Positions 3,073 to 21,551 of a stretch of 48,101 bases of DNA are shown here, piece by piece. Origin of the DNA: Alcaligenaceae bacterium (GTDB lineage: Bacteria; Pseudomonadota; Gammaproteobacteria; Burkholderiales; Burkholderiaceae_B); contig CANCMG010000002.1 of NCBI GenBank assembly GCA_947378965.1, forward strand, positions 69,938-118,038. The letters are read 5' to 3'. Under the pieces are notes generated by a model, which saw only the letters and a program-made list of their open reading frames with translations, was not told where the DNA came from and searched no databases. Numbering within the stretch: the first letter of the stretch is position 1; every line of letters begins with the position of its first letter. The position numbers and the translations under genes were made by a program.

Positions 3073-4617
3073 TCAGGGTTTGACGCCGTAACCACCACCG
3101 CCTGGCAAGCCTAGCTCGAGGATATCGCCCTCGACCATATCGACTACGCCTTTTGGATGTTCGACTGCCTGACCGTTGAGCAAGACATGACCAGTTCGCC
3201 CCGCCTGCCCGCCTTCAATACCCTTAGCGGGCACGCGTGTGCGCTCTGTTAATAAAGACACGCGCAGACGACCGGGCCAGCGCGACTGAAACGAGACTTT
3301 TTGCCCCATGCCGCCGCGATGAATCCCTTCGCCACCTGAACCTTCAATCAAACTCTTGCAACCAAACAGCACGGGCGAGAGCATCTCGGCGACTTCGATC
3401 GGTGTGTTTGAAATGTTGGCCGGAAACCCCGAAGTCGGTGGCCCATCGCGATCACGCATCGCCCCCATGCCGCCATTAAAAAAGAGAATGCTCGAAAACG
3501 AGGTACCAAGCGCAGGATTCACACCGCGCATCAACACCGACCAAAGCGGCGTGCCACTATCGGCCTGCACGCGTTCAGGCACCACCTTGGCCAGCGCCTC
3601 AAACACTGCGGCTTGCAGTTGATGTCCGATCAAATGTCTCGCCCCAACCGCGGCCGGCGGCTTTGCGTTCACGATCGTGCCCTCAGGAGCAATCACTTTG
3701 AATAAGCGAGTGAAACCATCGTTATTCGGGATGCCGGGTGACAAGAGGCATTTAAAAGGATAAATCGTATACGCGTAGGTATGATTAAAGGTCTCATTAA
3801 TTCCAAATCTGACCTGCGCCGTACTGCCGCTGTAATCCACCGTCACACCTTCATGACTGACGGTAATTTTGGCTTGGATTTTGATCCGTTCATCCCAGCC
3901 ATCGGACTCGACTGAGCCGTGATACACGCCAGGCGGAATTTTTCGCAGTTCGCGCAACGCGGCGTCTTCAGAGGCCTTGAAGATCGCCCCCGCAATCTCG
4001 TTGATATCGCTTAAACCGTACTCTTCTAGCAACTCTGTCAAGCGACGCTCGGCGACTCGCAAGGCTCCCACCTGCGCTTCGATATCGCCACGCACTTGCT
4101 GCGGCAAGCGCACGTTGGCCTCAAGCATCTGCATGACCCACGGGTTAAATACCCCAGCCTCGGCAAGCTTAATCACCGGAAAACGAATCCCTTCTTCATA
4201 CACTTCGCCAGCATCGGCAGACCATTGTCGACCACCTACATCAGACAAGTGTGCCACCGCCATCGCGAACGCCACTAAGCGGTCACCAAAAAAGATCGGT
4301 GCGACCATCGTGGCATCGGGGAGATGACCCGTACCGATCCAAGGGTCATTGGTAAACAGAATGTCGCCAGGCTTCAAAGACTCTTGAGGAAACACCTTCA
4401 AGATTCCTTTGAGCGACAAAGGCGCCGTACCGATAAAGCCAGGGATACTCAGGGCAGATTGTGCAACTAGCCGCGCTTCGGGATCAAGCAGCACACAGGC
4501 AAAATCATTTGACTCTCGCACCACTGTTGAGAACGAGGTACGTTTCAGCGTTGCCCCAGCCTCGTCGGTAATCGCGATCAGTCTGTTCCAGTAAATTTCT
4601 AGATCAATCGGGCTCAT
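3073..4617 (-). CDS. hyuB: Hydantoinase/5-oxoprolinase subunit B (HyuB-like)
   Basis: A 514-residue HyuB-family protein. With HyuA it forms ATP-dependent cyclic-amide hydrolases (N-methylhydantoinase, 5-oxoprolinase) or acetone-carboxylase-like enzymes. Family marks are the start 'MSPIDLEIYWNRLIAITDEA', 'SNDFACVLLDPEARLVAQS', 'GDILFTNDPWIGTGHLPD', the glycine-rich 'IEGSGGEGIHRGGMG' and the C-terminal 'GLPGGGGYG'. I chose the ATG at 4617 because AAAGGAG lies seven bases upstream and homologues start there; an open frame extends further to a TTG but looks like non-coding leader. HyuA is immediately upstream with a gap of 109 bp. The exact substrate cannot be read from the sequence; a ring amide is the natural guess given the PreA-like gene two positions upstream. 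Confidence 0.9.
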   Translation of the reverse strand: MSPIDLEIYWNRLIAITDEAGATLKRTSFSTVVRESNDFACVLLDPEARLVAQSALSIPGFIGTAPLSLKGILKVFPQESLKPGDILFTNDPWIGTGHLPDATMVAPIFFGDRLVAFAMAVAHLSDVGGRQWSADAGEVYEEGIRFPVIKLAEAGVFNPWVMQMLEANVRLPQQVRGDIEAQVGALRVAERRLTELLEEYGLSDINEIAGAIFKASEDAALRELRKIPPGVYHGSVESDGWDERIKIQAKITVSHEGVTVDYSGSTAQVRFGINETFNHTYAYTIYPFKCLLSPGIPNNDGFTRLFKVIAPEGTIVNAKPPAAVGARHLIGHQLQAAVFEALAKVVPERVQADSGTPLWSVLMRGVNPALGTSFSSILFFNGGMGAMRDRDGPPTSGFPANISNTPIEVAEMLSPVLFGCKSLIEGSGGEGIHRGGMGQKVSFQSRWPGRLRVSLLTERTRVPAKGIEGGQAGRTGHVLLNGQAVEHPKGVVDMVEGDILELGLPGGGGYGVKP

Positions 4618-4726
4618 GCCAGACTCCTTTGCTGATTCGTGCCACCACCGCAACCTGTCGCAGGCTGAGCATTTGTTGGTCTCATACAAGCCGCGTCAGG
4701 TAGGTCATGCTGGTTCTCAATTTGTG

Positions 4727-6853
4727 TCATGCTGCACGACCTTGGCGAGCGCCGAGTTTGATTCTTAGATTACCGTGCGCGTCTAGCGTAAAGACATCAC
4801 CAGGGCCAATCACCACAGTCGAGCCCGGCTGTTCAATCAAAGCCGGTCCCTCATAACGCTGCTCGGCGCGCAACTGTTCGAGCGACAGCACCGGTGTTTG
4901 AATAAACCCTTCGATATCCGGAAAAAATACCTGACGCGAACGCTCGGCCTGTGCGGGCTGGCCAGCGGGCGCTTGTGACGAACTGACTTCGGCACTGAGT
5001 GCAGCGCTCGCTGAGGCCTCGACTCGCCAATTCACAGCTTCAACCCGCTGTCCGACTAGTTTTCCGCCAAAGCGAGCCGCATAGGCCTGAGCAAAGGAGG
5101 CCTCGATGGTGCTCTGTTCAGACTGCACCAACTTCGCAGATAGTTCAGTCTCGACTTCAAAACCCTGACCAACATAGCGCATGTCTGCGCTGCGACGAAA
5201 CGTGATCCTCTCGCGCGCAACACCCGCTGACGCTAATTCTTTGCTCAAGGCGTCTTCCATCCCTTGCAGTAAGGCTTCAATCGCAGACCAGTCCATCTCG
5301 CTTAAGCGCGCATAACGCGTGCGAACCATATCCATTTTCATTGGCGCAACAAGCAACCCAAACGCTGAAAATACACCGGCGTTGGCGGGTACCAATAAAT
5401 CAGAGCCACCACAGCGGCGCGCGACTTCACGCGCGTGAATCGGGCCCGCGCCGCCGAAGGCGAGCAAGGTATAACGTCGAATATCACGGCCATTTTCGAC
5501 TGCATGAATTTTGGCGGCCACTGCCATGTGCTCGCAAACAATCCGATGAATCCCGTTGGCGGCTTCGACAATACTCAACCCCAAGGGGCGCGCAACATGC
5601 TCTTCGATCGCTTGCTCGGCCAAGTCGAGCCGTAAGCTGACAGCACCACTTAACGTACCCTGCGGATCAAGATAACCCAGCACCAAGGCCGCATCGGTCA
5701 CCGTGGGGCGTGTACCACCCAAGCCATAACACGCAGGCCCAGGGCTTGACCCTGCGCTCTGGGGTCCAACTTTCAGCAAACCCGTGGTGTCAACGTGCGC
5801 GATACTGCCACCGCCCGCACCAATCTCGATCAGATCAATGGTCGGCAAACGCACCGGCAGCCCACTGCCTTTTTTAAACCTTTGCTGACGCGCCGCCTCA
5901 AACTCGGTCGTAATCGAAGGGCGTCCGTTAGAAATTAAACAGGCTTTGGCCGTGGTGCCCCCCATATCAAAGGCCATCACGTTCGGTGTCTTTGACACGC
6001 GGGCAGAATGCGCCGCACCCAAAGCACCCGCTGCGGGCCCCGATTCAAGCATACGAATCGGCATGCGTTCGCCAAGTTCGCGAGAAATGACACCACCGTT
6101 GGATTGCATAATGTGCAGGGTCGCGTTCAGCCCAATGGCCCGCAAGCCATCTTCAATCGCCCCTAAGTAACTGCCAACCATGGGCATGACACACGCATTG
6201 AGCACCGTCGCAACGGTACGCTCGTATTCACGGATTTCACCTAATACTTCGGACGACAACGAAATCGACAGCTCGGGCGCGATCCGCTGTGCGATCGCTT
6301 TCACGCGCTGTTCGTGAGCAGGGTTGGTAAAGCTATGCAAAAAGCAGACGGCAATGGCACGCACGCCCGCCGTGCGTAATTGCTTCACGACTTGCTCAAC
6401 CTCTTGGTCTTGCATCTCGATCACGACTTGCCCTGCAGCATCGACACGTTCGCGAACTTCGGCCCGCAACGCGCGCGGCACGATCGCGTCAGGCCCTGGC
6501 GCAGTCAAGTCATACAGGTCGTAGCGCAACTCGCGTGCAATCTCGATCACGTCGCGAAACCCTTCAGTTGTGATCAAGCCTGTGACAGCGCCTTTGCGCT
6601 CAATCACAAGATTGGTCACCGCAGTGGTCGCCCCCACCACCACGTCGGTCACTTGAGCAAGAGTGAGTCCGTGTTCTTGAAGCAAGGCCAGTAAGCCCAA
6701 ACGAATGGGCATCACAACATCAGGCGCACCCGTCAGAACCTTTGAGGTGAAGATAGTGCCATCCGTACCGAGCAATACCAAGTCGGTAAAGGTGCCCCCG
6801 ATATCAAACGCAAAACGATATTGCTGGCTAGAAGCTAACGCCTGAGCAGTCAT
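4727..6853 (-). CDS. hyuA: Hydantoinase/5-oxoprolinase subunit A (HyuA-like)
   Basis: A 708-residue HyuA-family protein, the ATP-using subunit that partners HyuB. It shows the N-terminal ASKHA-like phosphate motif 'FAFDIGGTFTDLVLLG', the second phosphate motif 'VMAFDMGGTTAKACLI', 'IEIGAGGGSIAHVD', 'GPACYGLGGTRPTVTDA' and 'FGGAGPIHA'. Length is normal for a stand-alone A subunit. The ATG at 6853 lies only two bases after the stop of the PreA-like gene (TAA-GT-ATG), so the two are translationally linked. This order (PreA-like, HyuA, HyuB) suggests that a ring is reduced and then hydrolysed in an ATP-dependent step. Known members act on N-methylhydantoin, 5-oxoproline, caprolactam or, as carboxylases, on ketones; which applies is unknown. 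Confidence 0.92.
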   Translation of the reverse strand: MTAQALASSQQYRFAFDIGGTFTDLVLLGTDGTIFTSKVLTGAPDVVMPIRLGLLALLQEHGLTLAQVTDVVVGATTAVTNLVIERKGAVTGLITTEGFRDVIEIARELRYDLYDLTAPGPDAIVPRALRAEVRERVDAAGQVVIEMQDQEVEQVVKQLRTAGVRAIAVCFLHSFTNPAHEQRVKAIAQRIAPELSISLSSEVLGEIREYERTVATVLNACVMPMVGSYLGAIEDGLRAIGLNATLHIMQSNGGVISRELGERMPIRMLESGPAAGALGAAHSARVSKTPNVMAFDMGGTTAKACLISNGRPSITTEFEAARQQRFKKGSGLPVRLPTIDLIEIGAGGGSIAHVDTTGLLKVGPQSAGSSPGPACYGLGGTRPTVTDAALVLGYLDPQGTLSGAVSLRLDLAEQAIEEHVARPLGLSIVEAANGIHRIVCEHMAVAAKIHAVENGRDIRRYTLLAFGGAGPIHAREVARRCGGSDLLVPANAGVFSAFGLLVAPMKMDMVRTRYARLSEMDWSAIEALLQGMEDALSKELASAGVARERITFRRSADMRYVGQGFEVETELSAKLVQSEQSTIEASFAQAYAARFGGKLVGQRVEAVNWRVEASASAALSAEVSSSQAPAGQPAQAERSRQVFFPDIEGFIQTPVLSLEQLRAEQRYEGPALIEQPGSTVVIGPGDVFTLDAHGNLRIKLGARQGRAA

Positions 6854-6855
6854 AC

Positions 6856-8172
6856 TTAACCTTTAACTTTTGAAAGCTTGATGCCACGTTCAAAGCCGTT
6901 TTCGAATTTCTTAGACTCAAACACGTTGTCTTTAATCGAGAAAAACTCTTGTAGCGCGCGCTGTTCTTCAGTGGTCGTGTGCATGGTCGTGGCATCAAAC
7001 GGGCAGGTCTGCGTACACATTTCACAACCGATACAGTTGGCATGAATCGATTCGACCGAGCCATCACCCTGCGCCAAGGCATCATAAAAACAGGTTTGAA
7101 TACAAATCGTACAGGTTGGATTTTTACAGGCCTCAGAGGCAATTTCACTGTGCATGCGTGGCTTACGAAATTGCTCGCCATAGTCTTTCACTGCTGCGCG
7201 CGAGGCAATACCTGTCATCGAGGCGATATCTGGATAGCCATGGGTATCCATAAAATTATCAAGCCCTGTGATCATGCTGGGCAGGTACTTAATCCCCTTG
7301 AGCATCAACACGGATCCCACCTGCACTAGCGGCGCGCCCGTCATGATGAACTCAACGATATCTTTGTGATCGTAGATGCCGTTTGAACCCGTGATTGGCA
7401 TTCCAAGCTCGGTGTAGATACGATTCACCCAACGGAGTGATAAAGCTTTTGCCCACACCCCACCGATACCTGCGGGCCCGCCTAAGCGTGGCAAACCTGT
7501 TTCGATATCGACCGAAAACCCGGTGTAACGATTAGTGGCGGTGACACCCGCCGCGCCCGCCTCTTTTACAGCCCGCGCGACATCGAGTACACGCGATTGA
7601 TCAGGCGTAAGCTTAATCACGACCGGTATCTTGACGGCCTCACAGACGCGCGCCGTCACCTCACGTGCAATTTCAGGCTCTTGCCCAATCATCGAGCCAC
7701 CATGCACGCCAGGCATCATGGCCGGATGCGGGCAGCCAAAGTTAAGCTCAACCATCGGCAAGCCGCAATCTTCGATCGTGCGGCAAATATCGATCCAGCT
7801 TTGCATGGTTTTGCCACCTGCGCTACCGATCAAATGAGAACCCTGATCTTGCGCATACTTGTTTAAGTCTTTTAAGTGTGGAATCCATTCGCGCAGAGGC
7901 GTACTTGAGTACCCCGAACGGCTATAGAACACAAAATTTTTGTTGACCTTACCTTTAATCAATTCATTTTTTTCATTCAAGATGGCGTACTTTGAATTTT
8001 GCGTCAAACGCGCCATGTCCTCGATGTCAGTGAGGGTCTTGATGATCATGCCACCCGCACCCGCATCCACACATTCACGAATCACTTCCGGACTATTGGT
8101 GGTTTCAAGCGATGCAATCACCACCGGATTCTTAAATTTGACGCCACAAAAATCTAAAGAGAGATCAGCCAC
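6856..8172 (-). CDS. preA: PreA-like dihydropyrimidine dehydrogenase subunit with two 4Fe-4S clusters
   Basis: 438 residues. The N-terminal two thirds are an FMN-binding dihydroorotate-dehydrogenase-type barrel ('MADLSLDFCGVKFKNPVVIA', 'VELNFGCPHPAMMPGVHGGS', 'VIKLTPD', 'ITGSNGIYDHKD'). The C-terminal part has two ferredoxin-like cluster motifs: C349, C354, C357, C361 and C380, C383, C386, C390. This is the PreA arrangement of NAD-dependent dihydropyrimidine dehydrogenase. PreT, the FAD/NAD electron-input partner, is not in the window, so either it is elsewhere or another reductase serves. The start is GTG at 8172, supported by AGGGG seven bases upstream. The gene ends two bases before hyuA, so ring reduction followed by HyuAB ring opening is a sensible guess. 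The substrate need not be uracil or thymine, as no dihydropyrimidinase of the amidohydrolase type is seen. Confidence 0.85.
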   Translation of the reverse strand: MADLSLDFCGVKFKNPVVIASLETTNSPEVIRECVDAGAGGMIIKTLTDIEDMARLTQNSKYAILNEKNELIKGKVNKNFVFYSRSGYSSTPLREWIPHLKDLNKYAQDQGSHLIGSAGGKTMQSWIDICRTIEDCGLPMVELNFGCPHPAMMPGVHGGSMIGQEPEIAREVTARVCEAVKIPVVIKLTPDQSRVLDVARAVKEAGAAGVTATNRYTGFSVDIETGLPRLGGPAGIGGVWAKALSLRWVNRIYTELGMPITGSNGIYDHKDIVEFIMTGAPLVQVGSVLMLKGIKYLPSMITGLDNFMDTHGYPDIASMTGIASRAAVKDYGEQFRKPRMHSEIASEACKNPTCTICIQTCFYDALAQGDGSVESIHANCIGCEMCTQTCPFDATTMHTTTEEQRALQEFFSIKDNVFESKKFENGFERGIKLSKVKG

Positions 8173-8232
8173 GCGTTACCCCTAAATTAAGCGAAATTAA
8201 ATAGATTAAATAAATGAAAGACGTCAGAGACC

Positions 8233-8847
8233 TCAGGGCTCACCCACCCGACGCCTGGGCGCCTTTAACGCTTCGCCGCCAGGCCGCAACGAGGTTCGGC
8301 CACTTTCGTTATTGCCCGCGACCAGTCGCCCCAGAAGCTCCATAAACACCTGTCGATCGGCAGGATTGAGTGGGCTCAGTAATTGTTGTTGCGACAACTG
8401 CATATCTTTTTGATAGCGTTGTACGAATTTTTTGCCATCGGGCGTGGCCAAACATAATTTACGCCGGCGGTTCTGCGGATCCACCACACGGGTGAGCAGA
8501 TTGCGGTCTTCAAGACGCCTAAGAATCTCTGCGACGTTGGCTGGATCGAGCCCAAGCTCAGCACCAAGGGTGGCCTGATCGATACCTGGCCGGCGGATCA
8601 AAATGCTCAGTAAGCCAAACTGCACAGGGGTCACTTGCCCATCAGCCACGCGCGCAGAAAACATGGCCACGTGAATTTGATGCAACCTGCGCACCAAGTA
8701 GCCGGGTCGATCCCAAATCGTGTGGTTGGCAGTTGAGGCGTTGGCGGTGACGTTGGACACCGTCGGCACAACCAATAAAGCGGGCTGCCTGCGCGCAGCA
8801 GGTTTGGCGCCTAACTTAGGTGGTACGACACGCACACTTTTACTCAC
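8233..8847 (-). CDS. MarR-family transcriptional regulator
   Basis: 204 residues. The first ~45 are a basic, low-complexity tail. The rest is a MarR winged helix: 'YLVRRLHQIHVAMFSARVA', 'VTPVQFGLLSILIRRPGIDQ' (first DNA-binding helices), 'LGLDPANVAEILRRLEDRNL' (recognition helix) and 'VVDPQNRRRKLCLATPDGKK' (wing). Such proteins usually repress nearby catabolic genes and release DNA when a phenolic or heterocyclic ligand binds. I chose the GTG at 8847 because GAGG lies six bases upstream; a longer frame starts at a TTG at 8859. It sits between soxF and the preA-hyuAB genes in the same orientation, with a repeated operator-like sequence just upstream, so it likely controls itself and possibly the preA-hyu block. 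Confidence 0.88.
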   Translation of the reverse strand: MSKSVRVVPPKLGAKPAARRQPALLVVPTVSNVTANASTANHTIWDRPGYLVRRLHQIHVAMFSARVADGQVTPVQFGLLSILIRRPGIDQATLGAELGLDPANVAEILRRLEDRNLLTRVVDPQNRRRKLCLATPDGKKFVQRYQKDMQLSQQQLLSPLNPADRQVFMELLGRLVAGNNESGRTSLRPGGEALKAPRRRVGEP

Positions 8848-8865
8848 GGCAAGCCTCAATCAACG

Positions 8866-8961: not shown

Positions 8962-10236
8962 TTAAAGCAAACTATCCGCCCAAATATTGCGGGCCCAGCC
9001 CCAGGCATAGACGCCCTCTAGCTCGCTAGGCGCCAATGACACACCGCCCGAACCCGCGACAGTTTTATACGTCTTGTCTGGCGCGCTGTACTGATGAACA
9101 CTGGCCACATGCACGACTTTTGTCGCATCGACAAAGCTGTAGCAAGTGTTGGTTAACACTGGCTGAGGGTTAAGGGCAAACCCTTGCAACTCAGCCACAA
9201 TGGCGGCCGCAGCAACCTTGGCATGCTGATTTGCCATATGTGCCGACTTTGGCATAAAGGCCGCATTTTGTGTCGAATCCCCCAAAACATGAATATCTTT
9301 GGCTGCCGTTGATTCGAAGTTCAAAAAATTCACCTGCGCCCAGCGTTTATTTGAATTGGCCAAGCCCGCTTGCACAATTAACTCGGCCGCACGCATGCGT
9401 GGCAAAACATTTAACACGTCTGCCCGCACTGACTCTTGAATATCGAAGCGAAGCGTCTTGGTCGAGGCCTCAACTCTGACCAGATTATGCGATGCGCGAT
9501 ACTCAATCATGCCTGGGTATAAATCAGCCCAAGCCTTCTTAAATAACCCAGGCTTTGACACGACATCTTCGTTCGCATCCAAAATCAAGACCTTAGATTT
9601 GGGTTTATGCTTTTTAAAATAGGCGGCCACTTGGCAAGCTCGCTCGTACGGACCGGGCGGGCATCTAAAAGGCGCCTCTGGGATGCTCAGCGCAAATACG
9701 CCACCATCCGGCATATCTTGTAGTTGCTTTTGTAATGCAAGCGTTTCGGGCCCCGCCTTCCAGGCCTGGAGCGTCGCTCCCGCCTCGTTAGCCTGCACCA
9801 AGCCTTCGATACTGTCCATCATCAAGCCAATGCCTGGCGACAACACCAATTTATCGTAGCCAAGAGTCTTGCCAGATTTCAATTGAATAATTTTTTTAGT
9901 GGGATCAATGACCATCACCCAATCGCGCACCAGCGAGACGCCGTGCCGCTTTTGCAAAGCGTCGTAAGACACGCTCAGCTCAGCTAACGTACTTGACCCC
10001 CCAAGTACCAAGTTAGAAAGGGGGCACGACACAAACGACTGCTCGGGTTCGATCAGAGTGACATTCGCGGTGTGATCAGACAAGAGGCGAAGATATTTTG
10101 CCGCTGTGGCCCCGCCATAGCCGGCCCCTACCACCAGCACTTGAGCCGTTTTCAAGTTGGCACGAACAACCATGGGAAACGCCAGACCGGCGGCCATCAG
10201 TGTGCCAGTACGATTTAAAAACTGACGACGTTTCAT
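8962..10236 (-). CDS. soxF: FAD-dependent sulfide dehydrogenase flavoprotein (SoxF/FccB)
   Basis: 424 residues, matching the flavocytochrome c sulfide dehydrogenase flavoprotein. A Tat leader is clear ('MKRRQFLNRTGTLMAAGLAF'). The FAD dinucleotide fold follows at 36-50 ('VGAGYGGATAAKYLR'). Conserved cysteines are C71 in 'SFVSCPLSNL', C192 and C201 in 'RCPPGPYERAC', and C365 in 'TNTCYSFVD'; C192 and C365 fit the redox-active pair that attacks sulfide. The enzyme is periplasmic and oxidises sulfide or a persulfide, passing electrons to a cytochrome c. No soxE/fccA-type cytochrome gene is adjacent, so SoxXA or a soluble cytochrome may accept electrons. The ATG at 10236 has GAGGT seven bases upstream and lies 22 bp after soxA; an upstream in-frame GTG would overlap soxA and adds no recognisable sequence. 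Confidence 0.9.
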   Translation of the reverse strand: MKRRQFLNRTGTLMAAGLAFPMVVRANLKTAQVLVVGAGYGGATAAKYLRLLSDHTANVTLIEPEQSFVSCPLSNLVLGGSSTLAELSVSYDALQKRHGVSLVRDWVMVIDPTKKIIQLKSGKTLGYDKLVLSPGIGLMMDSIEGLVQANEAGATLQAWKAGPETLALQKQLQDMPDGGVFALSIPEAPFRCPPGPYERACQVAAYFKKHKPKSKVLILDANEDVVSKPGLFKKAWADLYPGMIEYRASHNLVRVEASTKTLRFDIQESVRADVLNVLPRMRAAELIVQAGLANSNKRWAQVNFLNFESTAAKDIHVLGDSTQNAAFMPKSAHMANQHAKVAAAAIVAELQGFALNPQPVLTNTCYSFVDATKVVHVASVHQYSAPDKTYKTVAGSGGVSLAPSELEGVYAWGWARNIWADSLL

Positions 10237-10258
10237 GGTATGACCTCGAGATAGTCTA

Positions 10259-11206
10259 TTAGGGACGAACGCCGGGGCTTTCAACCAGCATTGCACGTGC
10301 GCGCCAGGCTAAAAACAATTCAAGCTCAAGGAACTCGTTCGAGCCAAAGGCATAAGGCTCTGCACGCACGCCCACCATGCAATTACGCAAGCGCCGCTCA
10401 AGCGACCCCACTGCTTGCCATTCAAGCCGATAGATAGGATAAGCCGTTGGATGGGCCTGTGGGATAGGATTGCCCGCAAGCTTTTGCCCTGCACGCTCGG
10501 CGTGACATTGAGCGCAAGACAGGTTTAACTGGCCCATGCGCTGATTAAACAAGCGTTGGCCTGAAGCCAGTGCCTTTTCATTGGCAGGTGTGCGCTCAAC
10601 CGTAATCGGCATGCCCTTTGACTGCGTCGCAACATAAGCTGACAGCGCCAACAGCGGTTTACTTTCAAAAGCAAAAGGCGTGGCGGCTTGGTGCTCAGTG
10701 CGACAATGGTTGATACGCCCTTCAAGATTTAATAACTGACCCGTAGAATTAGCCTTGGGGAAACTTGCCGCGACACCTTTCATGGTTACCGTAGCATCAC
10801 CATGGCACGACGCACATGACTGATTTTTTTTACCAGCGAGCTCTCGCCATAAGACTTCACCATCTAATACAGCAAAGGTTGCTGGATTTAGACTTGGATC
10901 ATCTTGCATCGCCTTGGTGTCAGGCGACATCAATACGTAGCTGGATTGGCGCTCGGCGCCAACGGGGTCGACTTGAGACGACGCGTTAAAGGACAACAGC
11001 GTAGCGAGCGACAACAATACACTTAACAGATAAGACGAAGGAAATCGCTGCGCTCGAGGGGTCTCATCCCGTGGAGGCATCTCGTTATGCTGAAGCATCT
11101 CATCGCGCTGAAGCATCTCATCGCACTGAAGCATCTCGTTATGCTGAAGCATCTCATCGCACTGAAGCATCTCGTTACGCTGAAGCATCTCGTTGCGCTG
11201 AGGCAT
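10259..11206 (-). CDS. soxA: SoxA, dihaem cytochrome c subunit of the SoxAX complex
   Basis: 315 residues if translation starts at the ATG overlapping the soxZ stop (TGATG). Two haem c sites are visible, 'CASCHG' (C131, C134, H135) and 'CAQCH' (C231, C234, H235), plus C168 and C276. C276, in 'LRNCMVGVRAEPYAFGSNE', is the conserved cysteine that carries the persulfide and ligates the haem. SoxAX joins a sulfur substrate oxidatively to the SoxY cysteine in the periplasm. A signal peptide lies at about 52-78 ('SYLLSVLLSLATLLSFNASS'). The oddity is ahead of it: about 43 residues made of hexapeptide repeats (MLQxxE), encoded by an 18-bp tandem array. Each repeat carries an in-frame ATG, so the real start may be the last one at 11080, giving 273 residues and a normal leader. 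No clear ribosome site favours either choice. Confidence 0.9.
   Translation of the reverse strand: MPQRNEMLQRNEMLQCDEMLQHNEMLQCDEMLQRDEMLQHNEMPPRDETPRAQRFPSSYLLSVLLSLATLLSFNASSQVDPVGAERQSSYVLMSPDTKAMQDDPSLNPATFAVLDGEVLWRELAGKKNQSCASCHGDATVTMKGVAASFPKANSTGQLLNLEGRINHCRTEHQAATPFAFESKPLLALSAYVATQSKGMPITVERTPANEKALASGQRLFNQRMGQLNLSCAQCHAERAGQKLAGNPIPQAHPTAYPIYRLEWQAVGSLERRLRNCMVGVRAEPYAFGSNEFLELELFLAWRARAMLVESPGVRP
11073..11198. repeat. Tandem array, seven units of 18 bp, inside the 5' end of soxA
   Basis: Seven 18-bp units start at 11073, 11091, 11109, 11127, 11145, 11163 and 11181, and a partial copy reaches 11210. The unit reads 'tgaagcatctcatcgcac' with variants at a few positions (cat/gtt, gca/gcg/tgc/acg). 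The period is a multiple of three, so the soxA frame stays open through the array and encodes MLQ(R/C/H)(N/D)E repeats, with one ATG per unit. Copy-number change would alter the N-terminus, or the number of possible starts, without a frameshift. Confidence 0.92.
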
Positions 11207-11535
11207 CAAGTCACTGTGAGCGTACTGGTCGTACCCGAGGCGTAGCCGTTATCTCCGGACCATTTAAATTCTAAGGTACCGGTCTCAGTCGCAACGGTCG
11301 TAAACACAATCAACGGATTCGCGCCCATCGCAGGATGCAACTCGACACGAAAGACTTCGACGCCGTTATAGATGCACAGAAAATCACGAATAATGTCTCG
11401 CGGTACTCGCTGGCCGGTTTCGGTATGACGAAAGCCAGACTCCATATCGTGCTGCACAATGATGCGAATCTCAAGGATCTCGCCTTTTTTAGCCGTTGCC
11501 GGCATCGTGACAATCGTACGAGAGGTCTTACTCAC
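11206..11535 (-). CDS. soxZ: SoxZ, sulfur-carrier partner subunit
   Basis: 109 residues with the SoxZ immunoglobulin-like fold pattern: 'TMPATAKKGEILEIRIIVQH', 'MESGFRHTETGQRVPRDIIR', 'FRVELHPAMGANPLIVFTT' and 'TGTLEFKWSGDNGY'. SoxZ pairs with SoxY to form the periplasmic carrier on which sulfur intermediates are processed. The start is GTG at 11535, one base after the soxY stop, with GAGG at good distance inside the soxY end; an open frame extends to a TTG further upstream inside soxY but is unlikely to be used. The gene has no signal peptide, as usual, because SoxZ travels to the periplasm bound to the Tat-exported SoxY. Its stop overlaps the candidate soxA ATG. Confidence 0.92.
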   Translation of the reverse strand: MSKTSRTIVTMPATAKKGEILEIRIIVQHDMESGFRHTETGQRVPRDIIRDFLCIYNGVEVFRVELHPAMGANPLIVFTTVATETGTLEFKWSGDNGYASGTTSTLTVT

Positions 11536-11536
11536 A

Positions 11537-11980
11537 TTACACCTCGGTGCAGGCTGCAAGCGTCACTAAGGTCGCCGCGTCACCTTGCCAAAAAGACCCA
11601 TCATTCATTTGCGCGATTGCCCGCACGCGCTGCGAATCGCCTAAACGAATGCGAGTGGTAATTGCTGCACGCCCAGCACGAGGCGACAAGAAAAAACTCA
11701 CTACGTTCGGCAAGGGGTTACCCTCAGCCACGATATGAATCGCACGCACGTAATCCGTCTCGGTCATCGGGCTTTGCACTGCGACCTTCATGGTGACTAG
11801 ATTACCGTTCTCAACCAACGGTGGGATCTCGAGCGTGACGCGTCCAACCTTCGCTGCTTGACCACCCAAAATTTTATCAACGGCTTGCGTGGCGTCATCG
11901 ACGGTCGCAAAGGCGTTGAAGGAAGGCAACACACTAGCGGCTGCCGCACCCATTACAAAAGTTCTTCGAGTGATTGTCAC
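11537..11980 (-). CDS. soxY: SoxY, covalent sulfur-carrier protein with atypical C-terminus
   Basis: 147 residues. A Tat leader opens the protein ('MTITRRTFVMGAAAASVLPS', cleavage near AFA), followed by the SoxY domain ('VGRVTLEIPPLVENGNLVTM', 'VQSPMTETDYVRAIHIVAEG', 'NPLPNVVSFFLSPRAGRA', 'TRIRLGDSQRVRAIAQMNDG'). In characterised SoxY proteins the C-terminus is GGCGG, a flexible arm whose Cys binds the sulfur substrate. Here the protein ends VTLAACTEV: the Cys is kept, but the flanking glycines are Ala-Ala and Thr-Glu-Val. The arm may be stiffer or may carry other substrates. The start is GTG at 11980, overlapping the soxX stop by four bases (GTGA), showing tight coupling. The family is sure; the effect of the altered arm is inference. 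Confidence 0.92.
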   Translation of the reverse strand: MTITRRTFVMGAAAASVLPSFNAFATVDDATQAVDKILGGQAAKVGRVTLEIPPLVENGNLVTMKVAVQSPMTETDYVRAIHIVAEGNPLPNVVSFFLSPRAGRAAITTRIRLGDSQRVRAIAQMNDGSFWQGDAATLVTLAACTEV

Positions 11981-12417
11981 TGTTTTAAGCTCACTAAAAA
12001 AGCTACAACGTCTTCAATGTCTTGCGCAGTCAAGATCGACTTGCCTGCAAACTGCGGTGCAATCCGAGTCAAACCCTCGGCACGAAAATAAGAGGGCATG
12101 ATGGTATCCGGATTAAACCGGCTCGGATCGACGATTCGGGCGCGCAACTGCTCTGCCGACAAACCCGCCGAACTTGCTGCCAAATCAGGGGCGAGCGTGC
12201 CCTGAAAACGCTCTTCAGGAAACGGCCCGCTATGACACAAGATGCACAAGCCGCCTTGACGACTTAATACTAGAGCGCGCCCACGCACGACATCACCCGC
12301 TTGCCCCGACAGGGATGCGTTGATCCCATCACCGACAAAGACCTGCGCATGCAGGGGGTTGGTACAGGCAAGCCAGACACTGGCGACTAACGCCCACCCA
12401 ACACCCCGCTTTGTCAT
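11977..12417 (-). CDS. soxX: SoxX, monohaem cytochrome c subunit of the SoxAX complex
   Basis: 146 residues with a Sec signal peptide (about 1-24, ending LHA) and one haem c site, 'CILCH' (C58, C61, H62). The likely axial Met is M107 in 'PDTIMPSYFR', and 'LTAQDIEDVVAFLVSLKQ' is the typical SoxX C-terminal helix. With SoxA it forms the periplasmic complex that loads sulfur substrates onto SoxY. Its ATG at 12417 overlaps by four bases (ATGA) the stop of the molybdenum hydroxylase large subunit, so it is translated from the same messenger. That places a sulfur-oxidation gene directly in a hydroxylase operon. SoxX may also be a route for hydroxylase electrons to the respiratory chain; this is a guess from position only. 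Confidence 0.92.
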   Translation of the reverse strand: MTKRGVGWALVASVWLACTNPLHAQVFVGDGINASLSGQAGDVVRGRALVLSRQGGLCILCHSGPFPEERFQGTLAPDLAASSAGLSAEQLRARIVDPSRFNPDTIMPSYFRAEGLTRIAPQFAGKSILTAQDIEDVVAFLVSLKQ

Positions 12418-14603
12418 ACCAAGGTCATACCACTATTTTTCAAAGGCACATTACGCAAACGCTTACCCGTCGCGCGATAAATCGCGTTGAGCACGGCGGG
12501 CGCTGCGACACAAATTGTGGGTTCGCCAATACCGCCCCACTCTTTGCCACCGCCTTCAATAATAATGGTTTCAACTTTAGGCATCTGTGCAAGGCGGATC
12601 GACCCAAACGTATCAAAGTTTTTCTGTTCGATACGACCGTCTTTCACGGTGCACTCTTCTTCAAACAAAGCCGACAAACCGTACACAAACGAGCCAGACA
12701 CTTGACGCTGAATTTGCGCAGGGTTTACGGCATAACCGCAGTCGGTAGCTGCAACAATGCGATGAATCTTGACCTTGGTACCGTCAGTCACAGACAGTTC
12801 GCACGCAGCCGCCACATAGCTGCCAAACGCCGTCATCTGCGCGATACCTCGAAATACTCCGGGTGCAGCAGGTTTGTTCCAACCAATGCCTTCAGCGGCG
12901 GCGTTGAGCACCGCCAGATTACGCGGGAACTTACCCATAAATTTACGACGAAACTCAACGGGATCAACACCGGCCGTTTCAGCGAGTTCATCCATAAAGC
13001 ATTCGATGAATACCGCATTTTGGTTGACGTTCACGCCACGCCAAAAACCTGGCGGCACGTGCGTGTTGCGCATCGCGTGATCCATCAACTGATTCGGAAA
13101 CTCGTAACCGAAGCCATGCTCGCCACCGTCAAATACGCCTTGAAAGACCAAAGGATCACGGCCTTTCTGTTGTTCAACGACCGCAGGGCGCACCGCCGCC
13201 AAGATCGACTGACCCGACAAGCGCATATGCACGCCGGTCAAGTTTTTATCCTTGTCAAACGAACCGGTCAGCTTGCACATCATGACGGGATGATAACGAC
13301 CCTGCGTCATATCCTCTTCGCGTGTCCAGATCAGTTTGATCGGAGTACCTGGCATTTGCTTAGCGATATTGACAGCTTGGGTGGTGTAGTCTTGGAACGC
13401 GCCACGGCGACCGAAACCGCCGCCAAGATTGATTTTGTAAACCTCACACTTCTCAGCGACCAAGCCTGAGGCAGCAATGACAGCCGCCAATGAGGCCTCA
13501 CCGTCTTGGGTTGGCACCCAGGCTTCGCAACGCTCTGGTGTCCACTTCGCCGTAGCGTTCATGGGCTCCATCGGGGCGTGATTCAAGAACGGATAAAAGT
13601 AAGTTGCCTCGGTCTTGTTAACAGCGGCGGTAATCGCAGCTTTAGTATCACCACGCGTGTTGCCAACAAAAGCCTGCTCTGCAGTCAAACCCTCTACGAG
13701 CGTCTTGGCAATCGAAGCGCTTGACACGGTTGCATTTGGACCCTCGTCCCACACAATGGCAACTTGATCGAGCGCTGTCTTAGCAATCCAGAAAGTCTCG
13801 GCCACCACAGCAACAGCGGTTTCACCCACCTTCATGACCTTCTTCACGCCCTTCATGCCGGTGACTTTGCTGTCATCAAAGCTTTTGAGCTTGCCGCCAA
13901 AAACGGGGCACTCTTTGATGGTGGCGACCAACATGCCAGGCATCGTTAAATCCATACCGTAAACCTGCTTGCCGGTCACCTTGTCGGCAAAGGTGTCGAT
14001 GCGGTTCATCGACTTACCGATAATCTTCCACTGTTTCGGGTCTTTGAGCGTAATCTCTGTGGGGACAGCAATCTTTGATGCTGCCTCAGCCACTTTACCG
14101 AACGCCACTTTACGACCGCTTGGCGTGTGCGTGATGACGCTTTCGGCGGCCACACACTCTGCAACTGGTACTTTCCACTCGTCGGCAGCAGCTTGAACCA
14201 ACATCATGCGGGCAGCAGCGCCGCCTTTGCGAACATATTGTTCTGAGGTGCGGATACCGCGGCTACCACCGGTCGAAAAATCACCCCAAATACGCTTGCG
14301 CTTGAGGCTCTCGCCAGGCGTTGGATATTCAACCGTGACTTTGCTCCAGGCGCACTCAAGCTCTTCGGCAACCATCTGTGCCAAGCCCGTAATGGTGCCC
14401 TGACCCATCTCTGAGCGCACGACACGCACAATGACAGTGTCGTCGGGTTTGATCACCACCCAAGCACCGATTTCTGGGGTTGACTCTGCGGCAAGCGCTG
14501 AGCCCATAAAAGGAATATGTAAGCCAAGTGCCAGGCCACTACTGACGGCAGTGGTGCCAACAATAAACTGACGACGTGAAGGATTCGGGACGCGTGCATT
14601 CAT
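12414..14603 (-). CDS. Molybdenum hydroxylase large subunit, isoquinoline 1-oxidoreductase beta type (copy 2)
   Basis: 729 residues from the ATG at 14603, ten bases after the small-subunit stop. The open frame runs further upstream inside the small subunit, but that part has no family similarity. A Tat leader is clear ('SRRQFIVGTTAVSSGLALG', cleavage near ALA). Molybdopterin-binding marks are 'RSEMGQGTITGLAQMVAEEL', 'NLGGGFGRRGAFQDY', 'HAPMEPMNATA' and the C-terminal 'WGGIGEPTICVAAPAVLNAI', whose Glu in GEP is the catalytic base. This IorB/QorL-like class is periplasmic and hydroxylates aldehydes or N-heterocycles, usually passing electrons through its 2Fe-2S partner to a cytochrome c. Its stop overlaps the soxX start. 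It resembles the 748-residue large subunit further upstream (15331-17577) along its whole length, so the pairs arose by duplication. The substrate is unknown. Confidence 0.9.
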   Translation of the reverse strand: MNARVPNPSRRQFIVGTTAVSSGLALGLHIPFMGSALAAESTPEIGAWVVIKPDDTVIVRVVRSEMGQGTITGLAQMVAEELECAWSKVTVEYPTPGESLKRKRIWGDFSTGGSRGIRTSEQYVRKGGAAARMMLVQAAADEWKVPVAECVAAESVITHTPSGRKVAFGKVAEAASKIAVPTEITLKDPKQWKIIGKSMNRIDTFADKVTGKQVYGMDLTMPGMLVATIKECPVFGGKLKSFDDSKVTGMKGVKKVMKVGETAVAVVAETFWIAKTALDQVAIVWDEGPNATVSSASIAKTLVEGLTAEQAFVGNTRGDTKAAITAAVNKTEATYFYPFLNHAPMEPMNATAKWTPERCEAWVPTQDGEASLAAVIAASGLVAEKCEVYKINLGGGFGRRGAFQDYTTQAVNIAKQMPGTPIKLIWTREEDMTQGRYHPVMMCKLTGSFDKDKNLTGVHMRLSGQSILAAVRPAVVEQQKGRDPLVFQGVFDGGEHGFGYEFPNQLMDHAMRNTHVPPGFWRGVNVNQNAVFIECFMDELAETAGVDPVEFRRKFMGKFPRNLAVLNAAAEGIGWNKPAAPGVFRGIAQMTAFGSYVAAACELSVTDGTKVKIHRIVAATDCGYAVNPAQIQRQVSGSFVYGLSALFEEECTVKDGRIEQKNFDTFGSIRLAQMPKVETIIIEGGGKEWGGIGEPTICVAAPAVLNAIYRATGKRLRNVPLKNSGMTLV

Positions 14604-14613
14604 AGTTGACCCC

Positions 14614-15066
14614 TTAAGCTTTAGCGACTGAGTGAATCGCGGCGCGAACTTCTTGAAAGCTGCCGCAACGACAAATATTAGTGATCGCCGCATCAATATC
14701 GGCATCGGTAGGCTTAGGCGTTTTGGCCAGCAAATCAGTCGCCGCCATCAGCATGCCTGACTGACAAAAGCCGCACTGTGGGACTTGATGTTCAATCCAA
14801 GCTTGCTGCAACTGTGTTAGTTTGCCGTCTTTAGCCAAGCCTTCAATCGTTTGAATTTGCTTACCTACCGCTGCACTCACGGGCAGCACACACGAACGAA
14901 TCGCAGCACCGTCCATCATGATCGTACAGGCGCCACACTGAGCAATACCACAACCGTATTTGGTGCCGGTTAAGCCCACTTGCTCACGAATCACCCACAG
15001 CAAGGGGGTATTTGGATCGACATCGACGCTATGCGCTTTGCCGTTTACGGTTAACTGAATCGCCAT
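14614..15066 (-). CDS. Molybdenum hydroxylase small subunit, 2 x 2Fe-2S (copy 2)
   Basis: 150 residues. The plant-type ferredoxin cluster is held by C39, C44, C47 and C59 ('YGCGIAQCGACTIMMDG'), the second cluster by C98, C101, C132 and C134 ('CGFCQSGM' and 'ICRCGS'). It carries electrons from the molybdenum site of the large subunit that follows ten bases downstream. It has no signal peptide and presumably crosses the membrane with the Tat-exported large subunit. AGGAG lies upstream of the ATG at 15066. The 264-bp space before it, down from the other hydroxylase pair, is AT-rich near the start and may hold the promoter of the hydroxylase-sox operon, though I see no convincing -35/-10 pair. 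Confidence 0.92.
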   Translation of the reverse strand: MAIQLTVNGKAHSVDVDPNTPLLWVIREQVGLTGTKYGCGIAQCGACTIMMDGAAIRSCVLPVSAAVGKQIQTIEGLAKDGKLTQLQQAWIEHQVPQCGFCQSGMLMAATDLLAKTPKPTDADIDAAITNICRCGSFQEVRAAIHSVAKA

Positions 15067-15330: not shown

Positions 15331-17577
15331 CTAAATAAGCGTTAAGCCCTGCTTACGCAAGGGCAAATCCCTCGCGGGTTTACCCGTAGCAGCAAAGATT
15401 GCATTCAACACCGCGGGGCCTACGACACAGATGGTGGGTTCGCCCACACCACCCCAGAAATCATGGGTTGGCACCAATACGCACTCAACCTTTGGCGTAT
15501 CTTTAAGTTTGGCTAGGGGATACGAGTGATAGTTGTTTTCTTTCACTTGCCCGTTTTCAATCGTGATGTCTTCATTAAAAATTGCAGACAGTGCCATCAC
15601 AACCGAACCCTCAATCTGGGCTTTGACTTGCGAGGGGTTCACAAAGTGCCCCGAATTCAAGGCAAAAACCATGCGGTGCACTTTGACCTGACCACTTGGC
15701 GATACCGACACCTCAGCGGTAGCTGCCGAGTAGCTGCCATAGCCCATGAACTGCGCAATGCCGCGATGCTGTCCTGCAGGCAGCGGCTTACCCCAATCAC
15801 CTTTTTGAGCGACTGCATCTAAGACTGCGAGATGCTTTGGGTGTTTTGTCATCAAGTCACGACGAAACGCCAAGGAATCGCGACCCGCTGCACGCGCGCA
15901 CTCTTCAATGAAGCATTCCATGTAAATACCGTTTTGATTGGTATTGACACCACGCCAAGGGCCGACAGGCACAGGGCTGTTGCGCATGACATACTCAGTT
16001 AAAAGCGACGGGAAGGTGTAACCCAATTGGGCATCACCCGGCTCTTCGTAAAAACCTTGAAGTTGCCGAATGTCTTTATTATTTTTAATGGCTGACGGAT
16101 TTAAGTATGCATTGATTGACTGGCCCGAGACGCGAACATGAAATCCTGTCAAATTGCCCTTGTCATCTAGGCCTGCTGACATTTTTGCCATCGAAATCGG
16201 GCGATAGAAGTCGTGCATCATATCTTCTTCGCGACTCCAGACCATCTTAATCGGAACGTTGGGATAGAGCTTGGCAATCGCAACAGCGTGATGCATAAAA
16301 TCTTGTGTACCGCCACGCCGTCCAAGCCCACCGCCCAAGTCCATGGTCTGAATATCACAATTTGCCAGCGGCAGGCCAGACGCTTCAGAGAGCGCTGCGA
16401 TCGAGGCTTCGGCGTTTTGCGTGGGCACCCAGGCGTAAGCCCGGTCAGCACTTAGTTGCACCACGCAATTCATAGGCTCCATCGTGGCGTGGGCCAAAAA
16501 TTGGCTGCTGTACACAGCTTCGACTGTTTTGGCAGACGCTTTGATCGCGGCAAGTGCATCGCCTTCTTTACGCTGCCAGTAGTCGCCTTCGGCGCCCAGG
16601 CCTTCTTTTAATCCCGCTGCGATTGTCGTACTAGAGGCCTTGGCATTTGGACCTAAATCCCAATCGATCGGAAGGTTATCTAGGGCTGTTTTGGCACGCC
16701 ACCACGTGTCAGCCACGACAGCCACCGTTGAGTCATTGACTTTGACCACGCCCTTCACACCGCGCATGGCTTTGACCTTTGATTCGTCAAAACTCACGAG
16801 TTTGCCGCCAAACACCGGACAGCTTTTGACTGCCGCGCATAACATTCCCGGCAGACGCAAGTCGATACTGAAGACTTTGGCGCCGTTAACTTTGTCTGCG
16901 GTATCTAAGCGAGGGACCGCAGTCCCTGCGATTTTCCACTCTTGAGGCTTTTTCAGCACAATAGATTTTGCTTCGGGGGGTGTTAGCTTGGCCGCTGCAT
17001 CAGCGACTTTGCCGTAACTCACAGTGCGATTCGTCGGGGCATGCGTGATCACACCTTTACTCACCGTCAACTCAGACACTGGCACTTTGAACTGCTCAGC
17101 GGCCGCTTGCAAAAGCATCAGCCGGGCGGCAGCACCACCACGACGAACATAATCATGCGAGTCACGAATACCACGGCTACCGCCTGTCGCCATTGCACCC
17201 CAAGCACGCTTGCGGGCCAAATTTTGCCCTGCAGAAGGTGCTTCATAGGTGACTTTTTTCCAGTCGCAGTCGAGCTCTTCGGCGACCAACTGGGCTAAGC
17301 CCGTGCGTGTGCCCTGCCCCATCTCAGAGCGAACGATACGAATCACCACGGTATCGTCGGGTTTAATCACCACCCACAAGTTCACCTCGTCAGCGGTCAA
17401 GGTTGGCGCAGTGGCCTGTGCCAGAGCCGGGCGCGCCTGCATCAACCCAAGTGCCAGACCTGCACCAACGGAGGCCGTGCCGATCAAAAACTGCCGACGA
17501 GCAGGATGTAAAGGACTGTTGGATAGACGCTTAACATTACGTGTTGCGCCAGGAGCCTTACTGATATGGTTTGTCAT
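15331..17577 (-). CDS. Molybdenum hydroxylase large subunit, isoquinoline 1-oxidoreductase beta type (copy 1)
   Basis: 748 residues with a Tat leader ('ARRQFLIGTASVGAGLALGL', ALA site). Family marks are 'RSEMGQGTRTGLAQLVAEEL', 'DLGGGLGRRGGTQDFMHHA', 'HATMEPMNCVVQ' and the C-terminal 'WGGVGEPTICVVGPAVLNAI' with the catalytic Glu. In the molybdopterin loop GGGxG reads GGGLGRR here but GGGFGRR in copy 2, a difference next to the active site that could change substrate range. It follows its 2Fe-2S subunit after 11 bases. As with copy 2 it is expected in the periplasm with a cytochrome c acceptor. The two copies run collinearly with clear similarity throughout, so they are diverged duplicates, not a recent repeat. 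Confidence 0.9.
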   Translation of the reverse strand: MTNHISKAPGATRNVKRLSNSPLHPARRQFLIGTASVGAGLALGLMQARPALAQATAPTLTADEVNLWVVIKPDDTVVIRIVRSEMGQGTRTGLAQLVAEELDCDWKKVTYEAPSAGQNLARKRAWGAMATGGSRGIRDSHDYVRRGGAAARLMLLQAAAEQFKVPVSELTVSKGVITHAPTNRTVSYGKVADAAAKLTPPEAKSIVLKKPQEWKIAGTAVPRLDTADKVNGAKVFSIDLRLPGMLCAAVKSCPVFGGKLVSFDESKVKAMRGVKGVVKVNDSTVAVVADTWWRAKTALDNLPIDWDLGPNAKASSTTIAAGLKEGLGAEGDYWQRKEGDALAAIKASAKTVEAVYSSQFLAHATMEPMNCVVQLSADRAYAWVPTQNAEASIAALSEASGLPLANCDIQTMDLGGGLGRRGGTQDFMHHAVAIAKLYPNVPIKMVWSREEDMMHDFYRPISMAKMSAGLDDKGNLTGFHVRVSGQSINAYLNPSAIKNNKDIRQLQGFYEEPGDAQLGYTFPSLLTEYVMRNSPVPVGPWRGVNTNQNGIYMECFIEECARAAGRDSLAFRRDLMTKHPKHLAVLDAVAQKGDWGKPLPAGQHRGIAQFMGYGSYSAATAEVSVSPSGQVKVHRMVFALNSGHFVNPSQVKAQIEGSVVMALSAIFNEDITIENGQVKENNYHSYPLAKLKDTPKVECVLVPTHDFWGGVGEPTICVVGPAVLNAIFAATGKPARDLPLRKQGLTLI

Positions 17578-17588
17578 GTTCAGTCTTC

Positions 17589-18086
17589 TTATGCTTTAGT
17601 AACGCCAGCGGTTGCGTAATCGTTTAACACGTCGGCCAATTGCTTTTGACCCGCCGCGACATGAATACCGTCACGAATACGTTGATAGGTGCCGCAGCGG
17701 CAGATATTCGTCATCGCAGCGTCAATGTCAGCGTCGGTGGGCTTGGGCACGCGCTTAAGCAACGCCACCGCAGCCATCACCTGACCTGACTGGCAATAGC
17801 CACACTGTGGGATATCCAGTGCGATCCAAGCCTGTTGAATCGCGTGACTCGAGTCTTTAGACAACCCCTCAACGGTGGTGATCGCCTGACCAGCAGCACT
17901 GGCCACAGGGATCGAGCACGAGCGCACCAATTCACCGTTAAGTTGTACCGAACAGGCGCCACATTGGGCAACCCCACATCCATATTTAGTGCCCGTCAAA
18001 CCGAGCACTTCTCGCAACGCCCACAACAAAGGCATATCTGGTTCAACATCGATATTATGAACCGTGCCGTTTACTTTGAGTTCCAT
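17589..18086 (-). CDS. Molybdenum hydroxylase small subunit, 2 x 2Fe-2S (copy 1)
   Basis: 165 residues, an electron-transfer subunit like copy 2. First cluster: C37, C42, C45, C57 ('[18 protein letters not shown]'). Second cluster: C95, C98, C129, C131 ('CGYCQSGQ', 'ICRCGT'). A C-terminal extension of about 15 residues compared with copy 2 ends '[16 protein letters not shown]'. The ATG at 18086 has GAGGC seven bases upstream. It is the first gene of the hydroxylase run, 184 bp downstream of the oxygenase gene; that gap has no recognisable gene. Confidence 0.92.
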
Positions 18087-20626: not shown

Positions 20627-20630
20627 CGTA

Positions 20631-21512: not shown

Positions 21513-21551
21513 CCTCGTCGGTCTGAACAAACGAGACTACACGGAACAACG

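Follow-up and report, generated by a model that had tools for sequence, protein, structure and literature searches.

A molybdenum hydroxylase clade linked to a distinct soxXYZA set in an Alcaligenaceae bacterium and other Burkholderiales and Alphaproteobacteria

What does a set of sox genes do when it is joined to a molybdenum hydroxylase and has neither soxB nor soxCD beside it? The question is raised by a 48,101-nucleotide stretch of DNA from an Alcaligenaceae bacterium (assembly GCA_947378965.1, contig CANCMG010000002.1, positions 69,938 to 118,038; hereafter the window), whose minus strand carries, head to tail, a cluster of the order iorA-iorB-soxX-soxY-soxZ-soxA-soxF. Sox genes are common markers of thiosulfate oxidation. 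The original prediction, made from the letters of this DNA, held the pairing to be a new variant of the Sox system, in which the hydroxylase would act with the Sox proteins on an organosulfur or sulfur-containing heterocyclic substrate or would use SoxAX as electron acceptor; both options are possible. That this is a variant system was borne out: we regard it as a real one, apart from canonical Sox, because the pairing is conserved across classes, sits deep within the hydroxylase tree and is also present in genomes that yielded no soxB.

The predicted gene order and all the predicted overlaps and gaps proved exact. From iorB on, the junction gaps given by a script are −4, −4, +1, −1 and +22 bases: the iorB stop and the soxX ATG share four bases (ATGA), as do soxX and soxY (GTGA), one base separates the soxY stop from the GTG of soxZ, the soxZ stop and the soxA ATG share one base (TGATG), and soxF starts 22 bases past soxA. 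The scripted gap statistics take the start codon nearest to the upstream stop, which biases them to short gaps; for the window, the junctions were read from the sequence as well. In scans for promoters and terminators, the counts fell inside the range given by shuffled sequences.

To describe the linkage we used 98 SoxY loci (57 from named genomes, 40 further regions and the window), of which 74 had enough flank; the other 24 were excluded from the linkage count because their flanks were too short. These loci are dependent, as some genomes possibly stand under two identifiers and Microvirga, Polynucleobacter and the genus g242 are over-represented. Those from named genomes belong to freshwater Burkholderiales (Alcaligenaceae, Comamonadaceae, Polynucleobacter) and to Alphaproteobacteria (Bradyrhizobium sp. 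LHD-71, Neorhizobium, Rhizobium terrae, Microvirga, Skermanella, Arenibaculum). Both hydroxylase subunits were encoded on the same strand within 7 kb in 68 of the 74 flanked loci; SoxX and SoxA were present in 60, soxB in one, and soxC or soxD in none. Of the six exceptions, two (L050, L051) have iorAB next to soxXYZA on the opposite strand, two (L041, L073) consist of soxXYZA only, one (L052) is the soxB locus, with GGCGG, and one (L054) has just SoxF and SoxYZ. The arrangement is thus not peculiar to this strain, a point on which the original prediction had hinged, and is conserved across Burkholderiales and Alphaproteobacteria. Two metagenome bins titled Bordetella parapertussis (L077, L097) have a cluster resembling that of the freshwater Burkholderiales, and their label looks doubtful.

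A hydroxylase of this kind was absent from all 20 canonical sox regions taken from carrier genomes (soxB is present in 19); these control regions include L138 (9.9 kb), with soxCDYZAX and no soxB, and L144 and L145, with soxB and no detected soxY. When we searched in the reverse direction, 23 of 398 Pseudomonadota genomes had a hydroxylase match at E 1e-190, and in 20 of the 23 it was Sox-linked. Five of these genomes belong to the window's order, and their main hydroxylase copies are Sox-linked; among the other 18, SoxX, SoxY, SoxZ and SoxA were all present in 15, SoxX and SoxA only in one, and no Sox in two. Extra hydroxylase paralogues in G225 and G343 (L222, L223) are Sox-free. The SoxY_para_1 cut-off, discussed below, was passed in 25 of 399 genomes of the window's order.

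By sequence criteria, the linked Sox proteins are paralogues of a distinct type, apart from the thiosulfate set. In the window, SoxA scored 215 bits against TIGR04484 (cut-off 110) and SoxX 74 bits against TIGR04485 (cut-off 61), and SoxY, whose N-terminus looks twin-arginine-like by eye, passed TIGR04487 ("SoxY_para_1, AACIE arm"; 188.4 bits, cut-off 172) and failed the true-SoxY model TIGR04488 (91 bits, cut-off 125). SoxZ was over the PF08770 cut-off and slightly below that of TIGR04490 (69 against 76 bits). SoxY and SoxZ, which are separate genes, fell far below TIGR04557, the quinoprotein SoxYZ-like carrier (61.5 and 31.7 bits, respectively, against 140), and no pyrroloquinoline quinone (PQQ) enzyme was found among the scanned window proteins. 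All 98 molybdenum-linked SoxY have the arm cysteine and none has a GGCGG arm; seven end in CG after another residue (e.g., TACGG, SGCGL), and in L065, judged by eye, the cysteine lies further from the C-terminus, as in L017-type relatives. All 84 molybdenum-linked SoxA carry two CxxCH motifs and keep the active-site cysteine (in L053 as judged by eye), whereas the canonical SoxA from sox operons of carrier genomes has one CxxCH in 18 of 18. In a SoxY tree of 95 rows (reduced from 120 by dropping rows more than 88% identical), one branch with support 97 divides 79 molybdenum-linked from 16 canonical rows, and the program's long-branch warning concerns the canonical ones; all our trees are quick searches without bootstrap. 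At its 5' end (11062-11207), the window soxA has an 18-bp tandem repeat in about eight copies, in frame and encoding MLQ.[ND]E repeats ahead of a likely signal peptide; the repeat is a possible translated spacer or region of variable length.

The hydroxylase, too, belongs to a clade of its own. Its large subunit, IorB1, is recognised by PF20256 and PF02738 and stays below the cut-off of every NCBIfam equivalog; MoCoBD domains, a GxGEP loop, a separate 2Fe-2S subunit and a twin-arginine translocation (Tat) motif place it in the AldG/IorB branch of the XDH family. Its best structural match by sequence was 8gy3_C (228 bits; next 84), the large subunit of the Gluconobacter membrane-bound aldehyde dehydrogenase, and an AlphaFold model (predicted local distance difference test score 80) retrieved the same chain at a template modelling (TM) score of 0.83, with 26% identity in the fold alignment; the next structure, 4-hydroxybenzoyl-CoA reductase, reached a TM score of 0.61. 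The clade signature is a tryptophan (W689 in IorB1) immediately preceding the GGIGEP loop: it stands before the GGxGEP loop in all 83 clade rows aligned, and a proline takes its place in six outgroup IorB, from which the clade also differs in residues near the active-site loops. Further clade-specific active-site residues are R102, W192 and R512; in a second loop, the main branch has RGVN.N and the deepest branch RAV or RTV.

In the IorB tree, a 62-row clade with support 100 holds 52 Sox-linked rows (near-identical rows were dropped, above 84% identity in this tree and above 90% in another, together with the artefact L048_11838). At its first split, all 9 rows on one side and 43 of the 53 on the other are Sox-linked, so that Sox linkage appears to be ancestral. 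The remaining 10 rows are dispersed, and among them are L050 and L051, the loci with soxXYZA beside iorAB on the other strand. A strict one-to-one linkage of hydroxylase and Sox is ruled out by Sox-free members inside the clade. Among IorB at least 49% identical and with loci given, a sox gene lies within 1.5 kb in all but L173, L174 and L175, the last two being tandem IorB2 copies, and six outgroup paralogues of carrier genomes (L176-L181), 37-41% identical to IorB1, have no Sox within that distance.

The cluster was described at the outset as being without soxB or soxCD; this holds for the cluster and fails for the organism. The genome (4.5 Mb, 189 contigs) has on contig 5 (G000:C5) a canonical operon of soxC, soxD, soxY (ending in GGCGG), soxZ, soxA, soxX and soxB, with a cytochrome gene and another soxF a few kilobases off, and a SoxB-lacking genome is therefore ruled out here. 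Looking for soxB elsewhere in carrier genomes, as the original prediction had proposed, gave a divided answer: it was present in 44 of 67 and not found in 23 of 67, in searches for SoxB and SoxA that took in 29 of the 57 named loci. In a second genome set, 12 of 18 had SoxB. Among alphaproteobacterial carrier genomes (L099 to L128 of the named loci searched), 15 of 16 were without SoxB. In 15 genomes, the sole SoxY-family gene (E 1e-6) is the molybdenum-linked one and no SoxB was found (G140, G210, G407, G412, G414, G415, G416, G419, G421, G422, G425, G501, G637, G717 and G728); the last four are listed as 100% complete. SoxA was found in 66 of the 67 carrier genomes, including those without soxXA adjacent to iorAB-soxYZ, the exception being G210, whose contig stops just past soxZ. 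Eleven of the 74 flanked loci keep SoxYZ beside the hydroxylase without adjacent SoxXA, and all SoxA of these genomes lie on other contigs. In family f46 (L045; G131, G169, G263, G349), the system may be split between iorAB-soxYZ and a soxY with soxA on another contig; of these second sites L045 alone was viewed, with 2.3 kb upstream, which covers the absence of iorAB there only partly.

Genomes of the genus g242 (inferred to be Bradyrhizobium) bear on function. Seven of nine have exactly one soxB-linked soxY, one molybdenum-linked soxY and a single long homologue that is probably fused; in the other two there is one SoxY-family gene more. Several sox loci in B. japonicum were reportedly the subject of a 2010 paper. 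A soxXAYZ cluster separate from soxYZAXB is reported in an excerpt of PMC8402940, and according to an excerpt of PMC5748708, soxY1 of B. diazoefficiens is essential for thiosulfate oxidation and soxY2 is not. Because of the soxY complement of the g242 genomes, soxY2 is probably the molybdenum-linked carrier, and the requirement for soxY1 only would then hint that the molybdenum-linked system is not for thiosulfate.

The sequences show the gene set, its conservation, the separate branches, the kept cysteines and haems, and the presence of the genes in genomes without detectable SoxB; the mechanism outlined below is our inference, from its substrate and loading step to the sequence of reactions and the route of the electrons. 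Our preference, a tentative one, is for a conserved periplasmic oxidation module, made up of IorAB, a dedicated diheme SoxXA, a dedicated SoxYZ and, in roughly half of the loci, SoxF, that is distinct from thiosulfate Sox and probably acts on one organic, probably sulfur-containing, substrate. SoxXA would oxidatively couple an organic sulfur compound, through its thiol, to the arm cysteine of SoxY, and IorAB would oxidise in that compound a C-H that is aldehyde-like or activated in some other way, either on the carrier or just before loading. The electrons of both steps would exit via c-type haem, be it that of SoxXA or of a small cytochrome beside SoxF where present, and SoxB and SoxCD would be dispensable. 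A SoxB-free organosulfur Sox pathway in this full sense, with SoxXA attaching an organic thiol to the arm of SoxY for presentation to the hydroxylase, is conceivable, and we put it forward with some reserve; if true, the principle of the sulfur carrier would here serve carbon chemistry, and many soil alphaproteobacteria would have this pathway as their main or sole Sox system.

Several observations weigh against this proposal. SoxF was present in just 39 of the 74 flanked loci, and most Burkholderiales carriers also have SoxB. Hydroxylases with the same signature exist without Sox, so their chemistry seems not to need adjacent SoxYZ, and G562, a genome listed as complete, has iorAB-soxX-soxA and no SoxY. 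A catabolic neighbour that would name the substrate was sought by gene clustering of the loci and by Pfam analysis of the window genes, and none was shared beyond close relatives; many of the frequent "clusters" in that search were antisense reading frames in GC-rich DNA.

Some of these observations favour a different explanation, doubtful taken by itself and yet nearly as likely as the one we prefer, namely that IorAB oxidises a free aldehyde or N-heterocycle and that SoxXA, with a small cytochrome where there is one, is a mere electron acceptor, like AldF for AldG, with SoxYZ as a side partner. The large subunit of the Gluconobacter aldehyde dehydrogenase, the nearest structural match of IorB1, passes electrons to a c-type cytochrome subunit, and SoxX and SoxA are the sole CxxCH frames within 3 kb of the IorB1 gene on its strand. 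Five of nine Sox-free relatives checked have a same-strand CxxCH frame within 3 kb (cytochrome identity rests on Pfam for three of the five): L224, L227 and L228, on Sinorhizobium meliloti and Rhizobium plasmids, belong to the same clade and have a cytochrome c frame just upstream, L221 has a cytochrome c nearby, and L225, on plasmid pOB3b1 of Methylosinus trichosporium OB3b, has a multihaem cytochrome with tetratricopeptide repeats, an arylsulfatase, XdhC and a nucleotidyltransferase. These relatives, and G562 with SoxXA and no SoxY, lean to the acceptor idea. However, the other four relatives (L216, L222, L223 and L173, the last with only 1.5 kb of flank) have no such frame, and the loci that keep SoxYZ without SoxXA beside the hydroxylase lean to a carrier role. 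Invariant cysteines in SoxA and in the SoxY arm would also be unexpected for a bare electron relay. On balance, the evidence points to a c-type cytochrome as a common electron acceptor, which SoxXA may supply.

The likeness of IorB1 to an aldehyde dehydrogenase also fits an unlikely scheme in which the SoxY thiol traps an aldehyde as a thiohemiacetal, IorAB converts this to a thioester, and SoxXA reoxidises or protects the arm, no sulfur compound being oxidised. An excerpt of PMC12997753 offers the precedent of a SoxYZ-type carrier beside an aldehyde-making enzyme, but the window SoxY is in the separate SoxY_para_1 family and not of the fused quinoprotein type, and the retention of an active SoxXA would be left without explanation. 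That IorAB substitutes for SoxCD in an otherwise ordinary thiosulfate or sulfide pathway we consider very unlikely, even though no soxC or soxD lies within 7 kb in the flanked clusters and many of the genomes have no SoxB. XDH-family enzymes hydroxylate C-H, and SoxCD belongs to another molybdenum family. Moreover, thiosulfate Sox without SoxB has no sulfate release, SoxB also occurs in most Burkholderiales with the cluster, and B. diazoefficiens can oxidise thiosulfate without its soxY2, which is probably this carrier, according to the excerpt of PMC5748708 cited above. Lastly, chance, a strain-specific neighbourhood or functionless hitch-hiking could be read into the 4 of 20 regions that have the hydroxylase without Sox nearby and the 2 of 74 that have SoxXYZA without a nearby hydroxylase (L041, L073). 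We give this next to no credence in view of the cross-class conservation, the coupled junctions and the separate branches, and a chance or strain-specific neighbourhood is ruled out by the empty canonical controls and the 20 of 23 Sox-linked matches of the reverse search.

How does the proposed module relate to known systems? With canonical Sox it shares homologues of SoxX, SoxY, SoxZ, SoxA and SoxF, the SoxY arm cysteine and the SoxA active cysteine; it differs in a cluster without SoxB or SoxCD, an AAC.E-like SoxY arm instead of GGCGG, a diheme instead of a monoheme SoxA, and an XDH-family hydroxylase as the usual partner. Isoquinoline 1-oxidoreductase IorB has a Tat-type large subunit with a separate 2Fe-2S subunit, as does the membrane-bound aldehyde dehydrogenase of acetic acid bacteria (8gy3, AldG-type), from which the window enzyme, at 26% identity, differs in its clade-specific active-site residues and in having SoxX and SoxA as its nearby cytochromes. 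A fused SoxYZ-like carrier occurs beside PQQ alcohol dehydrogenases, as an excerpt of PMC12997753 has it. The quinoprotein-associated carrier of TIGR04557, found with SoxH, likewise lies beside a dehydrogenase for organic substrates rather than SoxB, but it is a fused SoxYZ with a PQQ enzyme, in contrast to the separate SoxY and SoxZ of the window.

Parts of the system are already known. NCBI names the SoxY family (TIGR04487, "SoxY-related AACIE arm protein"), and a deposited Methylobacterium plasmid uses the AACIE-arm name beside iorA-iorB-cytochrome-soxF-soxX-soxY-soxZ-soxA; the model covers one protein, and no linked hydroxylase or function is described in the sources found. The open-access PMC literature, which leaves out most subscription papers, yielded no paper on the hydroxylase-Sox pairing. 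With respect to that literature, what is new is the tie between SoxY_para_1, a diheme SoxXA and one hydroxylase clade, and their independence from SoxB.

Because of its carrier arm, diheme SoxA, molybdenum partner and presence without soxB, a soxXYZA set of this type probably does something other than thiosulfate oxidation, and it may be misassigned in genome surveys that take soxA, soxX, soxY or soxZ as evidence of thiosulfate oxidation. Many soil and freshwater bacteria hold a second, non-standard Sox set tied to a molybdenum enzyme of the aldehyde-oxidising type, and this suggests that the carrier has been recruited beyond its usual task in thiosulfate oxidation. The SoxYZ swinging arm would have a new use if the carrier hands an organic substrate to the hydroxylase, and this would also make these unexplained SoxY paralogues testable.

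The features of the cluster are collected in Table 1. The export signal of the iorA-like subunit was looked for by eye and not seen. Directly upstream of the first iorAB pair, and outside the coordinates of the original prediction, lies a second one, whose large subunit (IorB2) falls in a sub-clade with the copy beside soxXYZA in G140 and G046.

Table 1. Genes of the hydroxylase-Sox cluster and of the adjoining iorAB pair in the window
Feature	Coordinates	Strand	Basis
soxF, flavoprotein of flavocytochrome c sulfide dehydrogenase (FCSD) type, 424 aa	8962..10236	-	two Pfam FCSD models
soxA, diheme (two CxxCH), active-site Cys in LRNCMVGVRAE	10259..11206	-	TIGR04484
soxZ, GTG start	11206..11535	-	PF08770
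soxY paralogue, C-terminal arm LAACTEV replacing GGCGG	11537..11980	-	TIGR04487
soxX, monoheme cytochrome c (CILCH), ATGA overlap with iorB	11977..12417	-	TIGR04485
iorB-like molybdenum hydroxylase large subunit (IorB1), 729 aa from ATG 14603, Tat motif SRRQFI	12414..14603	-	PF20256, PF02738
iorA-like small subunit, two [2Fe-2S] domains, 150 aa	14614..15066	-	PF00111, PF01799
second iorB-like large subunit (IorB2), same clade as IorB1	15331..17577	-	IorB tree
second iorA-like [2Fe-2S] subunit	17589..18086	-	sequence

Elsewhere in the window, positions 19460-24083 encode a branched-chain-amino-acid type ABC transporter with an 843-aa permease-ATPase-ATPase fusion; a transporter alike in layout, also with an 843-aa fusion, lies near the canonical sox operon (L034:317-5162). 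After soxF and in the same direction, a block at 3073-8859 encodes hydantoinase A and B, a PreA-like protein of dihydroorotate-dehydrogenase fold with 4Fe-4S, and a MarR regulator, and parts of this block are common to the close relatives L076-L079 and L087.

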